Shown: positions 6,287 to 38,120 of the stretch, piece by piece | Layout: every line of letters begins with the position of its first letter | Position numbering within the stretch: the stretch's first letter is position 1 | Virus record (IMG/VR): IMGVR_UViG_3300046012_000317 | Location: 1 to 38,408 of that record | Strand: one strand, 5' to 3' | Length of the DNA stretch: 38,408 bases | From: a virus | Translations under genes and position numbers: made by a program | The notes under the pieces: generated by a model | Told to the model about the DNA's origin: nothing | Seen by the model: only the letters and a program-made list of their open reading frames with translations | Database searches by the model: none

Positions 6287-7625
6287 CAAACCCAATGCCC
6301 TGCCGTCCTCGGCGTCGGAAGGGACCGGAACACCGATCCTGCCCTGCCCATTTTGCGGCAAAGAGGCACATATCCTTGGCCCCGTCAGCTTCGACACGTA
6401 CGACGCAGTTTGTGGCAGTCTGACGCATCCTCTCGTGTTCATGCGCGGACCCCTCGACGTCGTTGTCGCGGCATGGAACCGCCGCGCGCTCCCCTCACCA
6501 GAATCGGCAGGAGCGTCAATGAGCATTCGCGAAATGCAGCGGATCAACGCTGAGCGGTCCAAGCGTTGGATGGGTACGAGCGTTGGATGGACGGTCCTCG
6601 AAGTCGCGGGCGAACTGGCTGGCGAAGTCGGAGAGCTCGCGAACGTCTGCAAGAAGCTCCGGCGCTCCCAGATGGGCGTGCCGGGCAACAAGGTCAGCGA
6701 TGCCGAGCTACTGAAACAGGCCACGAGCGAAGCGGCGGACGTGTTCATCGTGCTGATGCTCACCGCCTCGAAGCTCGGCATCGACCTTGAGCGCGCCGTG
6801 TGTGACACGTTCAACGCGAAGTCCGAGCAAATGGGATTCCCGGAGCGCATGCCACTGCGCGTGCCACCCGTCGCTTCCTCTGGTAAGGTGCCGCCGACGT
6901 GCAACGACTGCGGCGGCGAGTTAGAACTCGGCGGCTCGTTCACGCATTGCCGACACTGCGTGCGACTTCGCCACATCGAACATCTGCTTAACCAGGTTGC
7001 TCCCTCTCCTGAGGGCTGCGAAACCTCATCCCGCTTCCGGCCAGCTCACAACACCGTTCACGTCTCTCCCTCAGTCGGTGAAGCAAAGACAGCGGAACCG
7101 ACAATCGTTGACCGCGCACTGAGACGGATCGACCGGTGGGCCGACGAAACGGAGGCGGGCAGGCCGTGGATGATGGATGGTCACGAAGCCGCCGCGCTTG
7201 CCGTAGCTCTTCACGCCGAGCGAGCCGCCTCCGATCTCCTCCGACAGAAGAACGCGGAAACGCTGAAGGCACTGGATCGAGCTGAGGGCGAACGCGACGA
7301 GGCACACAAGGAACGGGCCAAGGTTGAGGCCGAACGGACGACGCTGGCTGTCCGGATGTACGACTGCGCAGTGGAAAACGGTCTGCTGGATAGCAGCCGG
7401 GCCGATTCACCTTCGATTCTGGTTTGCGAAGCCCTGACAGCTTCGCGCTCCGAGTGTGCCGCGTTGCGCGCTCAGCGGGACTCCGCACTCTCCTCACTCA
7501 AGGCAGTACGGGATGAGATCGAGAGACCGCTCACGCCGCCACTGACTATCTACTCGCTGAGCCTGCACATCGCCGACCTGCTGGCCATCCTCGACCGGGC
7601 CATCGCCCAACAGGAGGGAGCATGA
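6279..7625 (+). CDS. Lar-like zinc domain - MazG - coiled-coil fusion
   Basis: 448 residues with three parts. Residues 20-75 (CPFCGKEAH ... MRGPLDVVVAAWNRRA) match the Lar restriction-alleviation fold, although the second CxxC is reduced to one Cys. Residues 81-195 are MazG-like: MSIREMQRINAERSKRW, then EVAGELAGEVGELANVCKK and EAADVF, the ExxE...ExxD metal ligands of all-alpha NTP pyrophosphohydrolases that remove or sense dNTP and alarmone-type nucleotides. A CxxC...CxxC ribbon follows near 208-227. The C-terminus is a long charged coiled coil (residues 305-360, rich in Glu/Lys/Arg). An ATG at 6519 (M81) has its own AGGAG, so a shorter MazG form may also be made. Confidence 0.72.
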   Translation: MSDKPNALPSSASEGTGTPILPCPFCGKEAHILGPVSFDTYDAVCGSLTHPLVFMRGPLDVVVAAWNRRALPSPESAGASMSIREMQRINAERSKRWMGTSVGWTVLEVAGELAGEVGELANVCKKLRRSQMGVPGNKVSDAELLKQATSEAADVFIVLMLTASKLGIDLERAVCDTFNAKSEQMGFPERMPLRVPPVASSGKVPPTCNDCGGELELGGSFTHCRHCVRLRHIEHLLNQVAPSPEGCETSSRFRPAHNTVHVSPSVGEAKTAEPTIVDRALRRIDRWADETEAGRPWMMDGHEAAALAVALHAERAASDLLRQKNAETLKALDRAEGERDEAHKERAKVEAERTTLAVRMYDCAVENGLLDSSRADSPSILVCEALTASRSECAALRAQRDSALSSLKAVRDEIERPLTPPLTIYSLSLHIADLLAILDRAIAQQEGA

Positions 7626-8635
7626 GCGGCCGCACCGGAATCGAGTGGACGGACCGGACGTGGAACCCGGTCGTCGGCTGCACGAAGGTCAGCCAGGGCT
7701 GCAAAAACTGCTACGCAAAAACGATTCACGACATGCGGCACGCCGCGCACCTGGCCGGCAAGAAGATGGCGCCGCAGTACGCCGTGCCGTTCGAGCACGT
7801 GCAGCTCATGCCCGATCGGCTGACGTGGCCGCTCTCGCTGCGTCAGCCGTCGCGGATCTTCGTGAACAGCGTCAGCGATCTGTTTCACGAGGACGTGCCG
7901 GACGAGTTCATCGACCGTGTCTTCGCTATCATGGCGATGGCGCCAAGGCACGCGTTTCAGGTGCTCACGAAACGTCCCGAGCGGATGCTGGAGTACATCG
8001 GCGCGCCGGGATTGGTTGGTGACATCGATGGGAGATCGTGGCGCATCCGCGAAGCGGGTCACGCCTTCGGCGTCGCGATTGCGGACGATGTGAACTTCGC
8101 CCTGCCGCTTCCGAACGTATGGCTCGGCGTCAGCGTCGAGAATCAGAAAGCCGCAGAAGAACGCATTCCGCTTCTGCAACAGACGCCGGCAGCTGTCCGG
8201 TTTCTCAGCGCGGAGCCGTTGCTCGGCCCGATCGACTTCTATGGCGCCGGCAGTCGCGGTGGCGAGGACGGCGATCCGTTCGCCTTCTCCGCGTTGAGGG
8301 GAACCGATGGCGTCGAACCGCCGATCGCCGGTATCGATTGGGTCATCGTCGGTGGAGAATCTGGTTCATCGAAACAGAATCCACGGCCGATGCACCCGGA
8401 CTGGGCTCGCGGTATCCGCGATCAGTGCGTCGCCGCCGGCGTGCCGTTCCTGTTCAAGCAGTGGGGCGATTGGACGGTCTGCCCGCTGCGGCACCTCCCG
8501 GAGGACGTCGAAGAGGTGAAGCACCGCCGCGTTGGCGAGCAGTGGATGATGCGCGTCGGAAAGAAGCGCGCCGGCCGCGAGCTCGACGGCCGCACGTGGG
8601 ATGAGTACCCGTCTCCGAAGGAGAAGCTCGCATGA
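7622..8635 (+). CDS. Phage Gp37/Gp68 family (DUF5131) protein
   Basis: 337 residues. It opens with GIEWTDRTWNPVVGCTKVSQGCKNCYAK, the signature of the Gp37/Gp68 family (DUF5131), with cysteines C20, C27 and C30 in a CX6CX2C arrangement. The family also shows the conserved RIFVNSVSDLFHEDVP, VLTKRPERM, WLGVSVENQ and VIVGGESG segments, all present here. The three-Cys motif and barrel-like repeats suggest a radical-SAM-related iron-sulphur enzyme, but no reaction is established that I can name. It is full length. Start and stop overlap neighbours by four bases, placing it in the operon with the MazG fusion. Confidence 0.85.
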   Translation: MSGRTGIEWTDRTWNPVVGCTKVSQGCKNCYAKTIHDMRHAAHLAGKKMAPQYAVPFEHVQLMPDRLTWPLSLRQPSRIFVNSVSDLFHEDVPDEFIDRVFAIMAMAPRHAFQVLTKRPERMLEYIGAPGLVGDIDGRSWRIREAGHAFGVAIADDVNFALPLPNVWLGVSVENQKAAEERIPLLQQTPAAVRFLSAEPLLGPIDFYGAGSRGGEDGDPFAFSALRGTDGVEPPIAGIDWVIVGGESGSSKQNPRPMHPDWARGIRDQCVAAGVPFLFKQWGDWTVCPLRHLPEDVEEVKHRRVGEQWMMRVGKKRAGRELDGRTWDEYPSPKEKLA

Positions 8636-8727
8636 AGACGGAGACGATGGATCTCGTCCAGGTGCTCGCCGACGCGCGCTCTATTCGCGACAAAATCGCG
8701 GCGCTCCTCCCTCCTGAGCAGCCATGA
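8632..8727 (+). CDS. 31-residue coupled ORF
   Basis: A very small ORF (MKTETMDLVQVLADARSIRD, then KIAALLPPEQP). Its ATG overlaps the preceding stop (ATGA). It would fold as one amphipathic helix. It may be a real small protein or only a coupling device at the end of this operon; nothing in it allows a function to be named. It is the last gene before the promoter at 8768-8796. Confidence 0.35.
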   Translation: MKTETMDLVQVLADARSIRDKIAALLPPEQP

Positions 8728-8758
8728 CCCAGCCACCGAGCCGCCACCGCCCCAAAAG

Positions 8759-8781
8759 TCTTGCAATTTGCAAGAGTCCGC
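8759..8781 (+). promoter_or_regulatory. Operator-like dyad element, copy 1
   Basis: Contains an exact 8-base inverted repeat, TCTTGCAA and TTGCAAGA, around a single T at 8767; the arms extend to 10 bases with one mismatch (8757-8777). The right arm overlaps the -35 box of the promoter at 8768-8796, the usual place for a repressor or activator site. The 23 bases recur on the minus strand at 12743-12765 with 20 identities. Confidence 0.6.
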
Positions 8782-8796
8782 TTCTTCCCATATACT
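8768..8796 (+). promoter_or_regulatory. Sigma70-like promoter of the terS/GT4 operon
   Basis: TTGCAA (8768-8773, 4/6), a 17-base spacer, and TATACT (8791-8796, 5/6). Initiation is expected near 8803, only a few bases before the ATG at 8807, which has no good Shine-Dalgarno. The message may therefore be leaderless or nearly so. Confidence 0.6.
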
Positions 8797-8806
8797 ACCT
8801 GCTGAG

Positions 8807-9124
8807 ATGCCAAGACGCGCCAGCGCAACCAGTTTCGGCCAAAGCAAAGGCAACCGACCCGGTCGCAAAAAGGGCGACCCCACCAACGTCGGCGTCCTGC
8901 CCGCTACCTTCCGGAACCGGATGGCCCTGATCGCCTCTCGGATGCGGACCGTCAACGAGCTGGAGAAGATCCTCGAGAACCGGGACCATGCCGCCTTCAT
9001 GAAGGCCATGGAGTTCGTCACCGAACGCGGCTTCGGCAAGGTGCCGTCCGCAGTCGATGTCACCTCCAAGGGCGAGAAAGTCTCGGGCGTCGTCATCCTG
9101 CCCAGCGTCGGCGACGAGCCATGA
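8807..9124 (+). CDS. Probable terminase small subunit
   Basis: 105 residues from the ATG ten bases after the -10 box; the open frame extends back to a TTG at 8768, but that part is the promoter. The N-terminus is basic (MPRRASATSFGQSKGNRPGRKKG). The middle is helical (LPATFRNRMALIASRMRTVNELEKIL) and the end reads FMKAMEFVTERGFGKVPSAVDV, similar to the 'A.e.v.eRgyGKp.q.vdv' ending of many phage small-terminase-like proteins. The small subunit recognises the packaging site and hands DNA to the large subunit. Here the glycosyltransferase cassette separates it from the large subunit, which is unusual. A plain DNA-binding protein is the alternative. Confidence 0.5.
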   Translation: MPRRASATSFGQSKGNRPGRKKGDPTNVGVLPATFRNRMALIASRMRTVNELEKILENRDHAAFMKAMEFVTERGFGKVPSAVDVTSKGEKVSGVVILPSVGDEP

Positions 9125-10356
9125 CAGACCGTCCCTTCATTGCGTTGGGCTGGACCCCGGGTGCCCTAACCGGATGGGGTCAGTTCGGGGCACACTTCGC
9201 CCGTACGGTCTCGGAGGCCGGGTATCGCGTCGTTCTCCCTGGTGGGCTGGATCCGGCGGGGGTGCTGCCGTTGGACCGCCCGCTGCTCGCCTCACTGGTA
9301 GGTCCGGTCCCGACCGATGGCGCCCCCGGAGTGGTCTGCATGGCGATCGGGAACGCGCTCGAGGCTAAGCCAGAGGGGTTGCCGGCCTCGGTCCGGTGCG
9401 TGGGAATCATCTTCTGCGAGGACATAGGCGCATTCGATGAGGCTGGGGTCGCACGGCTCAATGCCTACGACCTGATCGTGGCCGGGAGCCGGTGGACCGA
9501 GCGGGTGCTGCGGGAGAAGGGGGTTGAGCGGGTGGTCTTGGCCCATCAGGGCTATGATGGGCGGGTGTTCTTCCCATGGACTGGCGCTATAGTGTCGCGC
9601 GAAGTCTCGGAAAACGCGGGAAAGTACGGCGATGCGCACGACAGCATGGCGACACCGAGCCGCCCCCGCGTCTTTTCCGGCGGCAAGCTCGAGTTCCGCA
9701 AGGGGCAGGACATTGTGGTCGAAGCGTTCCGACGCTTCCGTCAGACCCCCGAAGGCCGGGACGCACAACTCGTTGTGGCGTGGGACAACCAGTGGCCGCA
9801 GACCATGGACGGCATCTGGCTCTCGGACTACGTGAAGGGCGTCCCCACAGTGCGGAACGGGCGGTGCGAGGTCGGGCCGTGGTTGGTCGCGAACGGGTTG
9901 CCGGCGGACGCGGTGATCGACTGCGGCCGGCTGACGCCCCCCGAGGCCGCGCACGTGCTCAGGTCGTGTACAGCGGGAGTGTTCCCTAACCGGGCAGAGT
10001 CCGGGACCAATCTGGTGCTGGTGGAGGCGCTGGCGAGTGGGCTGCCGTGCATCATGGCCGGCCGTCATGGTCAGCTTGACGCTTCCCATGCGTTCGCGCC
10101 TGTGCCGCCGTGGCTACTAGACCCCAACGGGATCGGGCTGGATGTCGTGCCGAACGGCTGTTCCCTCTACAAGTCCACGGACGGTTGGGTCGAGACGGCG
10201 CCGGACGAAATCGTCGGGGCCTTGGCGCTGGCGGCACGGGGCGGATGGGGCGGCGCGTGGAACTCCTCGTCAAGCTACGCCGACTACTGGGACTGGTCCG
10301 TCCGGGGCCCGGCGATGGCCGAGGCGATCCTTCAGGCTGAGACGGTGGCGGCGTGA
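9121..10356 (+). CDS. GT4-family glycosyltransferase
   Basis: 411 residues, GT-B fold. The N-terminal half has an opening strand-loop (IALGWTPGALTGWGQFGAHFAR) and a central YDLIVAGSRWTERVLREKGV segment. The C-terminal donor-binding half has FSGGKLEFRKGQDIVVEAFRRF and FPNRAESGTNLVLVEALASGLPCI (E293...E302), the glutamate motif of retaining GT4 enzymes. It should move a sugar from a nucleotide-sugar donor to a glycan, protein or DNA acceptor. The acceptor is unknown: host surface glycan, a virion protein or modified DNA are all possible. It overlaps the small-terminase gene and the methyltransferase gene by four bases (ATGA, GTGA), so the three should be co-expressed from the 8768 promoter. Confidence 0.85.
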   Translation: MTDRPFIALGWTPGALTGWGQFGAHFARTVSEAGYRVVLPGGLDPAGVLPLDRPLLASLVGPVPTDGAPGVVCMAIGNALEAKPEGLPASVRCVGIIFCEDIGAFDEAGVARLNAYDLIVAGSRWTERVLREKGVERVVLAHQGYDGRVFFPWTGAIVSREVSENAGKYGDAHDSMATPSRPRVFSGGKLEFRKGQDIVVEAFRRFRQTPEGRDAQLVVAWDNQWPQTMDGIWLSDYVKGVPTVRNGRCEVGPWLVANGLPADAVIDCGRLTPPEAAHVLRSCTAGVFPNRAESGTNLVLVEALASGLPCIMAGRHGQLDASHAFAPVPPWLLDPNGIGLDVVPNGCSLYKSTDGWVETAPDEIVGALALAARGGWGGAWNSSSSYADYWDWSVRGPAMAEAILQAETVAA

Positions 10357-11042
10357 GCCTCTACCGCGACAACGCCCGCCCGCCAACGCTGCCGGTCCCG
10401 GCCCCCGAGCTGCCCCGTCCGATCATCCAGTTGCCGGACGCCCCGGAGCCGTGGTCCTTCAAGACTCGGGAGCACTTCCCGGAACTGATGACCCGATGGG
10501 GGCTGACCGGCGTTGGCGTCGAGGTCGGCGTCTATCGCGGCGGCTTCTCCAACTTGATCCTGCGGGAATGGCCGGGCGTGCTGCATGTGGTTGATCCCTG
10601 GGAGTTCCAGCCGGACAAGCGGGACATGCTCAACACACCCGACTTGCCGAGCGACTACGAGCGCGCGACGACCCAGCTTCAGGACTGGATCGCGCAGGGA
10701 CGGTGCATCGTGCATCGGGGCTACTCGGTAGACGTGGCGGCGAGTTCGGCTTTCTGTCATCGATCCGATGAATGGCATGCGCTCGATTGGGTCTACGTGG
10801 ACGCGCTCCACGACTACGCGTCCTGCATCGCCGACCTGACGGCATGGGCCCCGCTCATCCGGCCCGGCGGCGCGCTCTGCGGCCACGACTATCTGGACCA
10901 CCCACCGGGCGGTCAGACGGACTTTGGGGTGGTGTCAGCGGTCCGGGACTGGTGCAAAGCCAACGACTACTCAGTCTCGGACGACGTGTTGACGACGACG
11001 CACGACGGATACCCGACCTACGTGATTCGGCTGCGCCCCTGA
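10353..11042 (+). CDS. SAM-dependent methyltransferase (Methyltransf_24 type)
   Basis: 229 residues from a GTG overlapping the previous stop. Class I AdoMet fold: motif I GVEVGVYRGGFSNLILREWPG (residues 54-74), the acidic loop VVDPWE, motif IV LDWVYVDALHDYASCIADL (residues 143-161), and IRPGGALCGHDY. The 'iDg.HdY..v..Dl..w...l.pGG...ghDy' pattern is that of small-molecule/sugar methyltransferases often found beside glycosyltransferases. It probably O-methylates a sugar or the same acceptor as the GT4 enzyme. It is not a DNA methyltransferase: no NPPY or PC motif is present. Confidence 0.82.
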   Translation: MSLYRDNARPPTLPVPAPELPRPIIQLPDAPEPWSFKTREHFPELMTRWGLTGVGVEVGVYRGGFSNLILREWPGVLHVVDPWEFQPDKRDMLNTPDLPSDYERATTQLQDWIAQGRCIVHRGYSVDVAASSAFCHRSDEWHALDWVYVDALHDYASCIADLTAWAPLIRPGGALCGHDYLDHPPGGQTDFGVVSAVRDWCKANDYSVSDDVLTTTHDGYPTYVIRLRP

Positions 11043-11329: not shown

Positions 11330-12722
11330 ACCGGTGGAGGGCCAGCGTTGGCACGCCGATCGAGCCCGCAACATGTAGCCCGAGCGTATCGACGGCCACC
11401 ACCATGTCCAGCCCCGCCATCGCTTCGGCCAACCCCAGCACGTCAGGATAGACCGGACTCGGCTCGACGGACTTCCCGAGCCACGCACGCGCCACGAGGT
11501 CTGACGTGCCGGTTGGGTCGTACTGGAGCGGAACCCAGGTCACGCCGGGGATGTCGGCGAGCTGGCCCAGCAGTTCGTCCGGGATGGAGCGGAGCCGATC
11601 GACGGGGTTGCCGGACGTGCCCTTCCAGACCAGCCCGACGCGACGGGTACCTGAGTAGCCGCAGCCGGGCGGCTCCGTCGCGCTTGACCACTCCGTCATC
11701 GGCCGCGGCGCGTGCGTGAGTGGCCCCATCGGATCAGGCAGGTCGTCACCGCCCAGCAGCCCCGGCAGCGACATCAGCGGCACATGATATGTCACCGCGT
11801 GGGGGTAGGCGCCGGATCCGCGGGCCACGATCTTGAGCCCCGGCAACGACGCCTCCATCCATCGCGTCAACGCCGGCCGCGTCTCAAGCGCCACCACCGG
11901 CCACCCTCGGTCGATTGCCGCCCGCGCGTACCGGGCGAACATGACGTGATCGCCCAACCCCTGCTCGCCGTGCAGCAGCAGCGTGTCGCCTTTCCGGAAT
12001 GGCTGGCCGGTCCACGGCTTCCCCGGCAGGTCCGGCCGACCGTAGCTCGAGGCGAACGTGGGGTCGTCCCAGCGCTGGTTGAGCGCCTTCCAGCCTCGGA
12101 GGTAGTCCCCACGCCGGAGCCAGATGTAGGCTTGCGCGACTGAGGCGGACGCCTTGTTGGCGTCGAAGGCTATGGCTTTGCCCCAGCACCGTTCCGCCTC
12201 CTCGACCTGCCCCAGCGTGTAGAGGCTTGTGCCGAGGTTGCCCCAGCTCTCGACCTGAGCCCGGTCCAGCGCCAGCGCGCGCCGATACCACTCGACCGCG
12301 GCCGATGGTTCGCCGTCGTCATCCAGGAACCGCCCGACGTTGTGTGCCGCTACGGGATCCGTGGGTGCGGCTTCGTGGCAGGCGACCGTCAGCGTCAGGG
12401 CACAGTGTCGCCATAGGCCGATCTTGTCCTCCGGGGCCGGCGGGTCGGTGTAGCGGAGTGAGAAGTAGGCGCGCTGGGCCGCGTCGGACCCGAAGTAGAG
12501 CACCGCCTTGTTGGTCGGGTCGATTTCAGCACAGACTCCGAAGTGGTGCAGCGCTTGGACGAGATCGTTGGCCTTGACGGCATCCAAGGCTCGCTGGAGC
12601 GGCTTGGCGAGCTCGGGGCTGACAGGAAAGGGATTGGTCCCACCATCCGGGCTACTCGGTGCGCTTCCCGTCCGGTGTGGAAAACTCCCACGCCGCGGCC
12701 GGTTTCGCCTGCTCTGTGGCAT
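11160..12722 (-). CDS. TPR-repeat glycosyltransferase
   Basis: 520 residues on the minus strand; only two genes in the window run this way. Residues 35-230 carry TPR-like helices (AAVEWYRRALALDRAQVESWGNLG then EEAERCWGKAIAFDANKASA). Residues 230-510 are the glycosyltransferase-like domain of TPR proteins related to GT9/GT41: LLHGEQGLGDHVMFARYARA, RRVGLVWKGTSGNPVDRLRSIP, MVVAVDTLGLHVAGSIGVPT and LEWRWGQ...WYPSV, all in family order, so it is full length. It is related to heptosyl/GlcNAc transferases that modify surface glycans or proteins. I place the start at 12722, just after a promoter on the same strand; the frame stays open far upstream, antisense to the large terminase, where it is not coding. 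Confidence 0.82.
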   Translation of the reverse strand: MPQSRRNRPRRGSFPHRTGSAPSSPDGGTNPFPVSPELAKPLQRALDAVKANDLVQALHHFGVCAEIDPTNKAVLYFGSDAAQRAYFSLRYTDPPAPEDKIGLWRHCALTLTVACHEAAPTDPVAAHNVGRFLDDDGEPSAAVEWYRRALALDRAQVESWGNLGTSLYTLGQVEEAERCWGKAIAFDANKASASVAQAYIWLRRGDYLRGWKALNQRWDDPTFASSYGRPDLPGKPWTGQPFRKGDTLLLHGEQGLGDHVMFARYARAAIDRGWPVVALETRPALTRWMEASLPGLKIVARGSGAYPHAVTYHVPLMSLPGLLGGDDLPDPMGPLTHAPRPMTEWSSATEPPGCGYSGTRRVGLVWKGTSGNPVDRLRSIPDELLGQLADIPGVTWVPLQYDPTGTSDLVARAWLGKSVEPSPVYPDVLGLAEAMAGLDMVVAVDTLGLHVAGSIGVPTLALHRFNLEWRWGQSPAFAPWYPSVTHLVQPAPGDWGPVLSQVRQCIETGTRVALDPQGSA

Positions 12723-12727
12723 TCCGC

Positions 12728-12756
12728 AATATGCAGAGACCGGCGAACTCTCGCAA
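12728..12756 (-). promoter_or_regulatory. Sigma70-like promoter of the TPR-glycosyltransferase gene
   Basis: Read on the minus strand: TTGCGA (12756-12751), a 17-base spacer, CATATT (12733-12728, 4/6). Initiation would fall at about 12722-12720, which is the ATG itself, so a leaderless message is likely. The geometry matches the 8768-8796 promoter, and GAGTYCGC directly after the -35 box is shared. Confidence 0.5.
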
Positions 12757-12765
12757 ATTGCACGA
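12743..12765 (-). promoter_or_regulatory. Operator-like dyad element, copy 2
   Basis: On the minus strand this matches 8759-8781 at 20 of 23 positions, including the core GCAATTTGC. The dyad is weaker here (6 of 8 arm pairs) but again overlaps the -35 box. It lies between the divergent starts of the TPR-glycosyltransferase (12722, minus) and the large terminase (12810, plus), so a bound protein could affect both. Confidence 0.55.
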
Positions 12766-12809
12766 TTACCCCTTGTGCTCGCTCGGTTTTCTCCACATGT
12801 TGTCCACAC

Positions 12810-14369
12810 ATGGCCGCCCCAGCAGTCGCAACGACGCATGGAGGGTTGCCGGTGCTGTGGTCGGCACACCCCGGCCCGCAGACCCGGTTCTTGTCGTCCA
12901 CCGCATTTGAGGTCGGCTACGGCGGGGCGGCCGGCGGCGGCAAGACCGACGCGATCGTCTACGGCGCACTCCGGCAGACCGACCACCCGCTCTACCGAGC
13001 CATCATCTTCCGGCGAACGTTCCCGGAACTCCAAGAACTCATGGACCGCGCCGCGCTCGTCTACCCGCAGCTCGGGGCGACGTGGCACAGTCAGGAAAAG
13101 CGCTGGACGTTCCCCTCCGGCGGCAAGGTCGAGTTCGGGTACTGCGCCACCTACCAAGAAGCGCTCCAGTACCAGACGGACGAGTTCACGCACATCGCGT
13201 ACGACCAGTTGGACCAGCTCCCCGAGGAACGGATCTGGACCTACCTGTCGTCTCGTGTTCGCGCCAAGCACGAAGCACTGCGGCTCGGGATGCGCGCCTC
13301 GTTCAACCCCGGCGGCGTCGGGGGCCAGTGGATCAAGCGCCGCTTCGTGGATGTCTGCCCGTTGGATGGCTCGCCCATCACGGTCGAGACACAGACGCCG
13401 GACGGGCGCACCGTGCAGCAGACGCGGGCCTTCATCCGCGCGTCGATCAAGGACAACCCCGCGCTCCTCAAGAACGACCCGACGTATGCGGACCGGCTGG
13501 GGATGCTCTCCGAGATCGAGTACCGGCAGCTCGCGTTGGGCGACTGGGACGCGATGGGCGGGGCCTTCTACCCGGAACTGACGACGCAGGCGGATCAGGA
13601 CCGCTTGTTCGTGACGGCGGCCCAAGTGCCGCCGCTCCTCGATTGGCATGAGTACTGGGGATCGTATGACTGGGGGTTCATCCACCCGGCGACGTTCTCG
13701 CAGTACGTGCGGATCGGGGACCAGATCCTGTGCCTCGACACGACCTTCCTGCACAAGTACCAGGACGAGGATCAGGCGGCGACGATCAAGGGCACGGCCG
13801 ACCGGCGGTGTCTCCAGACGGTCTATGCGGGCCACGATGCCTTCGCGAAACGGCTGGCGCACAGCGCCGCCGCCGAGCGGGTCGCGGACGTATTCGCGCG
13901 CTACTCCATCGGGCTCGAGAAGGCGAACATCGACCGTGCGGCGGGGGCCAAGGTCCTGCGCCGGTTCTTTGCGCCAGCCAAGCCAGGCCCGATGCCCAAG
14001 GGCACCGTGTCGTTCCGCTGGGTGGACACGCCGGGGAACCGGCGCGTGGTCTCCGAGCTCGCGGCGTTGATCCCCGAGGAAACGAACCCCGATGTCCCGG
14101 CCAAGCGGGACGCGAACACGGACGGCCTTTTTGGCGACGACGGCGCGGACGGGGTCCGCTACGGTCTGGCGACCCCATCGTTCGCGCCGATCGAGCCGCG
14201 TCCGGTGTGGCACGGCGGGAACGTGGAGACCGGGGTGGACGATGGCGCCCCGTGGGAGCGTGACACCTTCCGGGTGACCAGTAACGGCGTGATCGACAAG
14301 CGGGAATACGCGTTCCGGAAGCCCGGCCCGGAGAGCGATTTCCCGGAGCGCGAGGAGAACGTCTTTTGA
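12810..14369 (+). CDS. terL: Terminase large subunit
   Basis: 519 residues from the ATG at 12810; the frame is open back to 12543, but that part is antisense to the TPR-glycosyltransferase and promoter. ATPase domain: Walker A GGAAGGGKT (K45), adenine-motif-like FRRTFPELQELMDRA, Walker B HIAYDQLDQ, coupling motif RASFNPGGVGGQWIKRRF. Nuclease domain: SYDWGFIHPATFSQYVRIGDQ with the first catalytic Asp, then YAGHDAF and a C-terminal GDDGADGVRYGL. It packages genomic DNA into the prohead and cuts it. In Walker B the usual catalytic Glu after Asp is Gln (codon CAG). No Shine-Dalgarno is visible at the start. A very weak promoter (TTGTGC, 17, CATGTT; 12773-12801) lies just upstream. Confidence 0.92.
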   Translation: MAAPAVATTHGGLPVLWSAHPGPQTRFLSSTAFEVGYGGAAGGGKTDAIVYGALRQTDHPLYRAIIFRRTFPELQELMDRAALVYPQLGATWHSQEKRWTFPSGGKVEFGYCATYQEALQYQTDEFTHIAYDQLDQLPEERIWTYLSSRVRAKHEALRLGMRASFNPGGVGGQWIKRRFVDVCPLDGSPITVETQTPDGRTVQQTRAFIRASIKDNPALLKNDPTYADRLGMLSEIEYRQLALGDWDAMGGAFYPELTTQADQDRLFVTAAQVPPLLDWHEYWGSYDWGFIHPATFSQYVRIGDQILCLDTTFLHKYQDEDQAATIKGTADRRCLQTVYAGHDAFAKRLAHSAAAERVADVFARYSIGLEKANIDRAAGAKVLRRFFAPAKPGPMPKGTVSFRWVDTPGNRRVVSELAALIPEETNPDVPAKRDANTDGLFGDDGADGVRYGLATPSFAPIEPRPVWHGGNVETGVDDGAPWERDTFRVTSNGVIDKREYAFRKPGPESDFPEREENVF

Positions 14370-36305: not shown

Positions 36306-36464
36306 ATGACAGGCGGTTCGAGGCCGCCGACTGGCAATAGGGCTATGCGTGGGGCATCCGAAAGGACTCCCGCTCGGACGATACCCGAGACACGACGCTA
36401 CGGCCCGACTGGTAATGCGAAGGGAAGCACTTCACCGAATCACCGGAGCGCGACGAACCAATGA
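36306..36464 (+). CDS. Small Gly/Arg/Thr-rich ORF
   Basis: 52 residues starting MTGGSRPPTGNRAMRGASER and continuing RYGPTGNAKGSTSPNHRS. The frame stays open upstream to 36039, overlapping the 36020 gene, so the start is uncertain; I chose the ATG preceded by GAGAGCAGG. The stop overlaps the next gene's ATG (ATGA), which supports reality. It is basic, without aliphatic core, and probably disordered. Function unknown. The 76 bases before it (36230-36305) hold nothing I recognise. Confidence 0.4.
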   Translation: MTGGSRPPTGNRAMRGASERTPARTIPETRRYGPTGNAKGSTSPNHRSATNQ

Positions 36465-36892
36465 GCGACACAACCTGTTCGACCTGCCACACCGCAACCG
36501 GCGCGCTCGACACCGAGACGATGGATGAGGGTCGGCGGTGCCAATTCGGCTGTGGACGGCCCGTGGACGAGGACACGGGCATCTGCCCGTCCTGCCACGA
36601 GCACTCTCTGAATGTGTGGGAATGCCCCGCTTGTTCGACGGAGTACGGTTGCTGGCGCGGTCGGTGGGCGCTGGTGACGACTGACTGCAAATGCGATGGC
36701 GACCGCGACTGCCCGGACTGTCACCCCGAGTGCCCCGACTGTCGAGGACGCGGCTACTTCGGCTGGTCCTCCTCGGGGTTTACCTGCGACACCTGCAAAG
36801 GCATGGGCACGCTGGGCTGGACGGACGATCAGATCCAGGATGCCGCCGAAAACCGGCAGATCGCGTCCGACCGTCGCCACATGGAGGGCTGA
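36461..36892 (+). CDS. Multi-zinc protein with DnaJ-type CxxCxGxG repeats
   Basis: 143 residues with about 20 cysteines. The first half has CSTC, CQFGCGRPVDEDTGICPSCHEHS and CPAC pairs. The second half has CDCPDCHPECPDCRGRGYFGW-like and CDTCKGMGTLGW units, i.e. CxxCxGxG twice, the signature of the DnaJ central zinc domain, but no J domain. It is likely a zinc-binding adaptor or chaperone-like protein. Part of the first half repeats in the next gene (CxFGCxRPVDxDTGxCPSCxEHS), showing an internal duplication in this region. Confidence 0.6.
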   Translation: MSDTTCSTCHTATGALDTETMDEGRRCQFGCGRPVDEDTGICPSCHEHSLNVWECPACSTEYGCWRGRWALVTTDCKCDGDRDCPDCHPECPDCRGRGYFGWSSSGFTCDTCKGMGTLGWTDDQIQDAAENRQIASDRRHMEG

Positions 36893-36896
36893 CGCG

Positions 36897-37181
36897 ATGA
36901 CACAGCGCTTTGATCCCGCCGACTTCCGCGCAGGCGAACTCGCCTCGGCGACTCATGCCGTCACCGCGCATTGCGTGGGTTGTCAGGACGCACACGGCCA
37001 GCCCGATCAGCAGAAGATCGCGGCGATGGAGGGCGCGGGCTGCGTGTTCGGATGCCCGCGTCCGGTGGACTCGGATACCGGCGTCTGCCCGTCGTGCCGC
37101 GAACACTCGGCGAACGCCGTCGAGTGCGAGGACTGCGGGACGCGCTACGAGGACTGGTCCGGCCAATGGGAGGCGGCATGA
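36897..37181 (+). CDS. Zinc protein, paralogue of the preceding gene
   Basis: 94 residues from ATG 36897. After an acidic-helical N-terminus (FRAGELASATHAVTAHCVGC) it carries CVFGCPRPVDSDTGVCPSCREHSANAVECEDCGTRYEDW. This aligns well with residues 27-65 of the preceding protein, so the two genes share a duplicated four-Cys/His metal module. No DnaJ-type repeats here. It precedes a small coiled protein and the ERF gene, and its stop overlaps the next ATG. Confidence 0.6.
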   Translation: MTQRFDPADFRAGELASATHAVTAHCVGCQDAHGQPDQQKIAAMEGAGCVFGCPRPVDSDTGVCPSCREHSANAVECEDCGTRYEDWSGQWEAA

Positions 37182-37412: not shown

Positions 37413-38120
37413 ATGAAACACTCCGACTCAATCGCGAACCTCTGCGCCGCGCTGGTCAAGGCGCAGGCGGATCTCAAAGCGGTGGGCAAGGATTCCGTCA
37501 ACCCGCACTTCCGGTCCAAGTTCGCGTCCCTGGATTCGATCATCGACATGGTGCGGCCCGCGCTCGCGAAGCATGGTCTGGCCGTGCTGCAAGGCGCGAC
37601 GGTGCCCGAGAGCAACGCCGAGGGCGTCCTGACGGGCTTCACCGTCGAGACGATGCTGGTCCATGCGTCGGGCGAGTGGCTGACGAACGGTGCGGTCCTG
37701 CCGATGACGAAAGCGGACCCGCAGGGCGCGGGCGCGGCGCTGACGTATGGCCGGCGCTACTCGCTCGCGGCGCTCCTGTTGATCTCGACGGACGAGGACG
37801 ACGACGGCAACCACGCCAGCGTCCCGACGACGCGAGGCACGGAGTCACGGCCCGCCGGCCCGCACCCCAAGGCCGTCGAGGCGCGCAACAACGCGAACCG
37901 CAACGGGAATCCCGCCGACAAGCTGATGCCGTTCGGGAAGAAGAAGGGCACGCGGCTCGGCGACTTGGAGGACGGGGAACTGGAGCGGACCATCGAGTGG
38001 TGCAACAGCCGCGAGACGCCGGAGAAGTTCGCGGACCTCGTGGAAGCGATCGGGCAGGTGCTGGACGACCGGCTGGTGGCGGCGTCTCTCGCGGACAAGC
38101 CGGACGATTTGCCTTTTTAG
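37413..38120 (+). CDS. erf: ERF-family single-strand annealing protein with SSB-like tail
   Basis: 235 residues. Residues 5-125 match the ERF family: LCAALVKAQADLKAVGKDSVNPHFRSKFASLDSIIDMVRPAL, VETMLVHASGEWL and QGAGAALTYGRRYSLAALL. ERF proteins form rings and anneal complementary single strands, helping phage recombination and genome circularisation. A basic linker leads to MPFGKKKGTRLGDLEDGELE (residues 172-191), an 'FGK.KG..l.dl' module seen at the ends of some phage exonuclease and ERF proteins. The last eight residues, DKPDDLPF, closely resemble the acidic C-terminal tip of bacterial SSB (DDDLPF/DDDIPF), which recruits repair and replication proteins. Confidence 0.88.
   Translation: MKHSDSIANLCAALVKAQADLKAVGKDSVNPHFRSKFASLDSIIDMVRPALAKHGLAVLQGATVPESNAEGVLTGFTVETMLVHASGEWLTNGAVLPMTKADPQGAGAALTYGRRYSLAALLLISTDEDDDGNHASVPTTRGTESRPAGPHPKAVEARNNANRNGNPADKLMPFGKKKGTRLGDLEDGELERTIEWCNSRETPEKFADLVEAIGQVLDDRLVAASLADKPDDLPF

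Follow-up and report, generated by a model that had tools for sequence, protein, structure and literature searches.

A phage annealing protein of the ERF family carries at its extreme C-terminus a tip of the type known from bacterial SSB (SSB-Ct), and this tip is probably a docking site for other proteins. That it stands in for the tip of a phage SSB, and thereby recruits tip-binding proteins to annealase-coated DNA, is given slightly better than an even chance. The known ways in which phage annealases reach single-stranded DNA and pass it to other enzymes involve binding of the SSB tail; an annealase carrying the tail itself would reverse that logic. The window examined here, meaning the whole stretch of DNA analysed, is a phage contig of 38,408 bases from IMG/VR, classed as linear and with 66% G+C.

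The erf gene (37413–38120, + strand) encodes 235 amino acids, and 288 bases separate its stop codon from the contig end. An earlier note, made from the sequence by a model, had taken the product for an ERF protein. This is borne out: the Pfam profile PF04404 matches residues 13–139 with E 3.7e-25 (89 bits, against a cut-off of 25), and PHROG 2324, the Erf-like annealing protein, matches with E 1.6e-44. The assignment of this open reading frame (ORF) to the ERF-family annealing proteins is sound on these profile matches; annealing of single-stranded DNA and formation of rings or filaments are predicted. The same note had read the end of the product as DKPDDLPF, and the last codons (GAC AAG CCG GAC GAT TTG CCT TTT TAG) confirm this as the true C-terminus. 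Its further claim that the tail resembles an SSB tip also holds, as the terminal Phe with its free carboxyl, the preceding Pro and the upstream acids (D228, D231 and D232) are all present. Among ORFs of at least 40 residues in the window, erf is the only one with an acidic ending in PF. The window also has two adjacent cysteine-rich genes (36461–36892 and 36897–37181), which are diverged duplicates with 52% identity over 66 aa. The first has DnaJ-like CxxCxGxG repeats, and neither has a Pfam match.

Elsewhere in the window, a single 751-aa gene (581–2836) encodes an SF2 helicase fused to an N6/N4 DNA methyltransferase, and a further gene (7622–8635) belongs to DUF5131 (phage Gp37/Gp68 type; E 8e-95). 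A Glycosyltransferase gene and a Methyltransf_24 gene are adjacent at 9121–11042. Downstream of this pair is a terminase-like ORF (12543–14369), so assigned from sequence only.

The architecture of the ERF protein was examined in an AlphaFold model built with 41 relatives. The annealing core (aa 1–130; 37413–37802, + strand) is predicted to have a Rad52-like annealase fold, with pLDDT values of 90–98 in aa 1–120 (at least 90 over blocks of this range). Among solved structures, its best match is the phage ERF protein Gp77 (PDB 9y6u; E 2.4e-9; 48 chains in two entries). Second come human RAD52 chains, whose E-value of 4e-3 is weak on its own. The core is followed by a flexible linker (aa 131–180; 37803–37952, + strand), which is disordered in the model (pLDDT 48–60), and by a small helical C-terminal domain (aa 181–227; 37953–38093, + strand; alignment A4) with a pLDDT of about 85 (84–89) and helices at 187–199 and 203–227. 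The motif MPFGKKKG..L.DL precedes this domain. The tip itself comprises aa 228–235 (38094–38117, + strand). Although residues 131–180 are disordered, the last helix ends at 227, only eight residues before the C-terminus. These eight residues are of low confidence, and the model neither shows nor excludes a contact made by them. Fusion to an SSB was considered as the source of the tip and is ruled out: searches of the ERF protein with PF00436 and phrog_44 gave no match to an OB-fold SSB domain, and the C-terminal domain is helical instead.

Searches of IMG/VR with the window protein and its relatives yielded a clade of nine members, namely the window and L002, L197, L003, L344, L345, L346, L347 and L348, with core identities of about 50–63% among the members compared. 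All nine end in -LPF; the endings are PDDLPF, DEDLPF, DDDLPF, KDDLPF, MDGSLPF (in two members), PGSLPF and GGSLPF (in two members; the ends of L347 and L348 agree), and LPF is encoded by differing codons. In an alignment of six clade sequences, mean pairwise identity is 62% for residues 1–135 and drops to 27% for residues 136–232, where only four columns are invariant, and to 22% for residues 200–232. For residues 233–235 it is 100%, i.e. L233, P234 and F235 are invariant. On this comparison, the tip at the extreme C-terminus is shown to be under selection. A functionless ending that arose by chance, or as a low-complexity acidic stretch, would fit the absence of the tip from most ERFs and the general frequency of acidic ends, but such an origin is very unlikely when LPF is invariant against a 22%-identical background, is written in non-identical codons, and recurs above background in the ERF family.

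The domain preceding the tip differs within the clade. It is of the helical type in the window, L003 and the L344 group, and zinc-ribbon-like (CPKC...C....C) in L002 and L197, the latter being read from the sequence with weak Pfam support. The C-terminal domain has been exchanged while the tip survived, and this survival of LPF is the strongest evidence that the tip is functional.

The recognition of SSB-Ct follows published rules. In SSB partners, the terminal Phe is buried and its carboxyl group held, and the Pro and the acids upstream are read as well; without Phe or Pro, binding is weakened or abolished, and the spacer sequence is unimportant (PMC10164576). In the clade, Leu-Pro-Phe stays at the end and the spacer varies, which matches these rules, and the tip is probably a docking site of this type. 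In the L344–L348 subgroup, the acids beside LPF are lost (GSLPF), a change that would weaken a classical SSB-Ct. This subgroup also bears on the possibility of self-regulation, by which the acidic tip would fold onto the protein's own DNA-binding groove, or into the SSB-Ct pocket of a neighbouring subunit, and so tune DNA binding or ring assembly. SSB tails do make weak contacts with the DNA site of the same protein (PMC5928155), and Redβ has a site for the SSB tail (PMC7496540), so that binding of an annealase to its own tip is conceivable. However, LPF with its free Phe carboxyl is retained while the acids vary, a pattern more readily explained by a pocket than by electrostatic mimicry of DNA, and self-regulation is considered quite unlikely.

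Beyond the clade, the picture changes. A survey of the C-termini of ERF homologues, proposed in the earlier note as a check, upheld the tip within the window's clade, where it is universal; most of the ERF family has unrelated tails, which the note had named as counting against its reading. The family was sampled as 190 ERF clusters at 70% identity and compared with the 2,631 non-ERF proteins from the same loci that have 150 aa or more. A terminal PF with an acidic residue among the final ten occurs in 14 of the 190 clusters and in 29 of the 2,631 other proteins; in its strict form, the tip is found in 10 and 24, respectively (p 5e-5). Acidic tips ending in PF are hence about 6–7 times commoner in ERF clusters than in the comparison proteins. 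The family-wide frequency of about 5–7% is inflated, with 7% as an upper estimate, since the ERF loci were gathered partly with tip-bearing queries. SSBs and replication proteins account for many of the non-ERF carriers in these loci. In L070, an ORF of 734 aa that lies close to erf (8252–10450) also ends in an SSB-type tip, KDDDDIPF, and the set of tip carriers scanned with it includes DNA primase/helicase families.

No ERF with a tip was seen among about 50 from bacterial genomes and named phages. Family searches of about 600 genomes of the Pseudomonadota and Planctomycetota groups recovered some 30 ERFs, none of them tipped, and alignment A1, when run against bacterial genomes, recovered two loci only. 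On a tree of ERF cores, parsimony requires 11 changes (gains or losses) of the tip, at least five of which are forced by supported branches. Rarity among clusters together with repeated change on the tree marks the SSB-type tip as a recurrent minority trait of the ERF family. It is not generally required by ERFs, since many ERFs without a tip have no tipped gene beside them either. Other tipped ERFs end in IPF, VPF or PPF, which bears on a possible role of the tip in degradation. In Streptococcus mutans, LPF at the C-terminus is enough to make a protein a substrate of ClpXP, but it goes unrecognised in E. coli, S. gordonii and S. sanguinis (PMC5143411); given this and the variety of ERF endings, a degron is extremely improbable.

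In almost 80% of Firmicutes phages with erf, ssb adjoins it (PMC8093625). In ordinary ERF phages (Pq0, 42E, LL5, 8P and others), the tip sits on this adjacent SSB. For the comparison of neighbourhoods, genes were re-called by a codon-position GC score, as greedy calls had picked shadow ORFs in GC-rich contigs. Of 131 tipless ERFs, 53 have a separate tip-bearing gene at most 3 kb downstream, and of 11 tipped ERFs none has (Fisher p 0.007; p 0.05 with a stricter definition of the tip). Paired comparisons on the tree gave too few informative pairs for significance, with none opposite in direction; with phylogeny controlled, the mutual exclusion of ERF tip and neighbour tip is not significant.

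Canonical SSBs (PF00436 or phrog_44) were sought as well. None is encoded in the window, although the contig ends 288 bp past erf and an SSB beyond this point is possible. Whole-record searches of 19 other records with tipped ERFs (G598, G599, G600 and 16 more, some of them fragments) found no canonical SSB, whereas 13 of 39 records with tipless ERFs contain one. The only three tipped-ERF records with an SSB are L306, L307 and L308, the records of L004, L008 and L009. In these phages, the SSB (PF00436) has a basic, tipless end (SSSRPRRDF), while the ERF ends QDDVPF...ESGPF, i.e. with DDVPF and a terminal GPF. A tip hidden by a frameshift in the SSB of L306 is ruled out, as the downstream frames were checked and hold none. 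L018, a relative of these three, shows the reverse: its SSB ends SDDVPF and its ERF QDDVL. In L017, both proteins carry the tip, with the copy on ERF not terminal. These patterns, all from one lineage, suggest that the tip can shift between SSB and ERF.

The idea of the earlier note that the recombinase may take over host SSB partners is supported in part, namely as regards the motif and its selection. Tipped ERFs in phages that lack a tipped SSB suggest a replacement of the phage SSB tip, rather than an additional device for taking over host proteins. A possible course of events, as other annealases behave, is as follows. ERF probably forms rings or filaments on single-stranded DNA; if rings form, each would display many tips at once. 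Proteins with an SSB-Ct pocket would then gather on DNA coated with the annealase, much as SSB recruits them to the DNA that it covers. Candidates in the host are RecO, RecG, PriA, RecQ, ExoI, RecJ and the chi subunit of Pol III; on the phage side, an exonuclease or a replisome protein may be considered. Host enzymes would be the simplest partners, and the chance that they are the main ones is put at even. The phage could then do without a dedicated SSB adaptor, and repair and restart enzymes would stay on phage recombination intermediates after ERF has displaced the host SSB.

The tip might instead dock a phage-encoded partner, as the tail of T7 gp2.5 does, and not the SSB partners of the host; candidates would be the products of the exonuclease and 3'-5' exonuclease genes next to erf, or a replisome protein. 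In G598, a close relative, erf has a 3'-5' exonuclease-like gene on one side and, following it, a PHROG 284 exonuclease gene, and on Redβ the sites for its exonuclease and for the SSB tail overlap in part (PMC7496540). In G600, however, the tip is the same but other genes stand right after erf, and for exactly this motif host SSB partners have one pocket type in common; a phage-encoded partner is judged unlikely.

The docking tip may, more tentatively, be mobile as a module, passing in phages from ssb to the annealase gene or back. Lineages would lose the SSB, or only the tip on it, and acquire the tip on ERF instead, which would then be the central point of recruitment for repair and restart enzymes of the host, possibly evading defences that sense phage SSBs. 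This wider proposal is speculative and has the odds against it. In excerpts of the paper on the Hna/SSB defence, no link to the C-terminal tip was found. If the docking reading of the tip is true, it would offer a simple handle for recombineering annealases that depend less on a matching SSB.

Among known systems, the closest are the ERF annealing proteins themselves (P22 Erf type and Gp77, PDB 9y6u), whose core the window protein shares by profile, by sequence (E 2e-44 in a profile match to Gp77) and by predicted fold. The ERFs of named phages differ in their ends: none of the 17 that were read has an SSB-type tip, which sits on the neighbouring SSB if one is present. No report of such a tip on an ERF was found in the open-access papers searched. 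With bacterial SSB-Ct, the window protein has in common an acidic stretch followed by Leu/Ile-Pro-Phe at the extreme end. In SSB this is borne on a long disordered linker, whereas in the clade it follows a helical or zinc-ribbon-like segment and no OB fold. Gp2.5 of phage T7 binds single-stranded DNA, anneals it, and has an acidic tail ending in Phe; the window ERF has such a tail too and is predicted to anneal. Gp2.5 is, however, an OB-fold SSB, and its tail works with phage replisome proteins. DdrB of Deinococcus radiodurans, a pentameric protein of another family than ERF, is likewise an annealing protein with an SSB-like end. Its reported C-terminal motif is dispensable for radioresistance (PMC3834827), which by analogy is a warning against over-reading the ERF tip. 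Other annealases use the tip in trans. Redβ uses the SSB tail in this manner (PMC7496540), and the stimulation of Sak4 annealing depends on the tip of SSB-HK620 (PMC5928155). In the latter system the SSB-type tip is found on a separate phage SSB, whereas the window ERF bears it itself.
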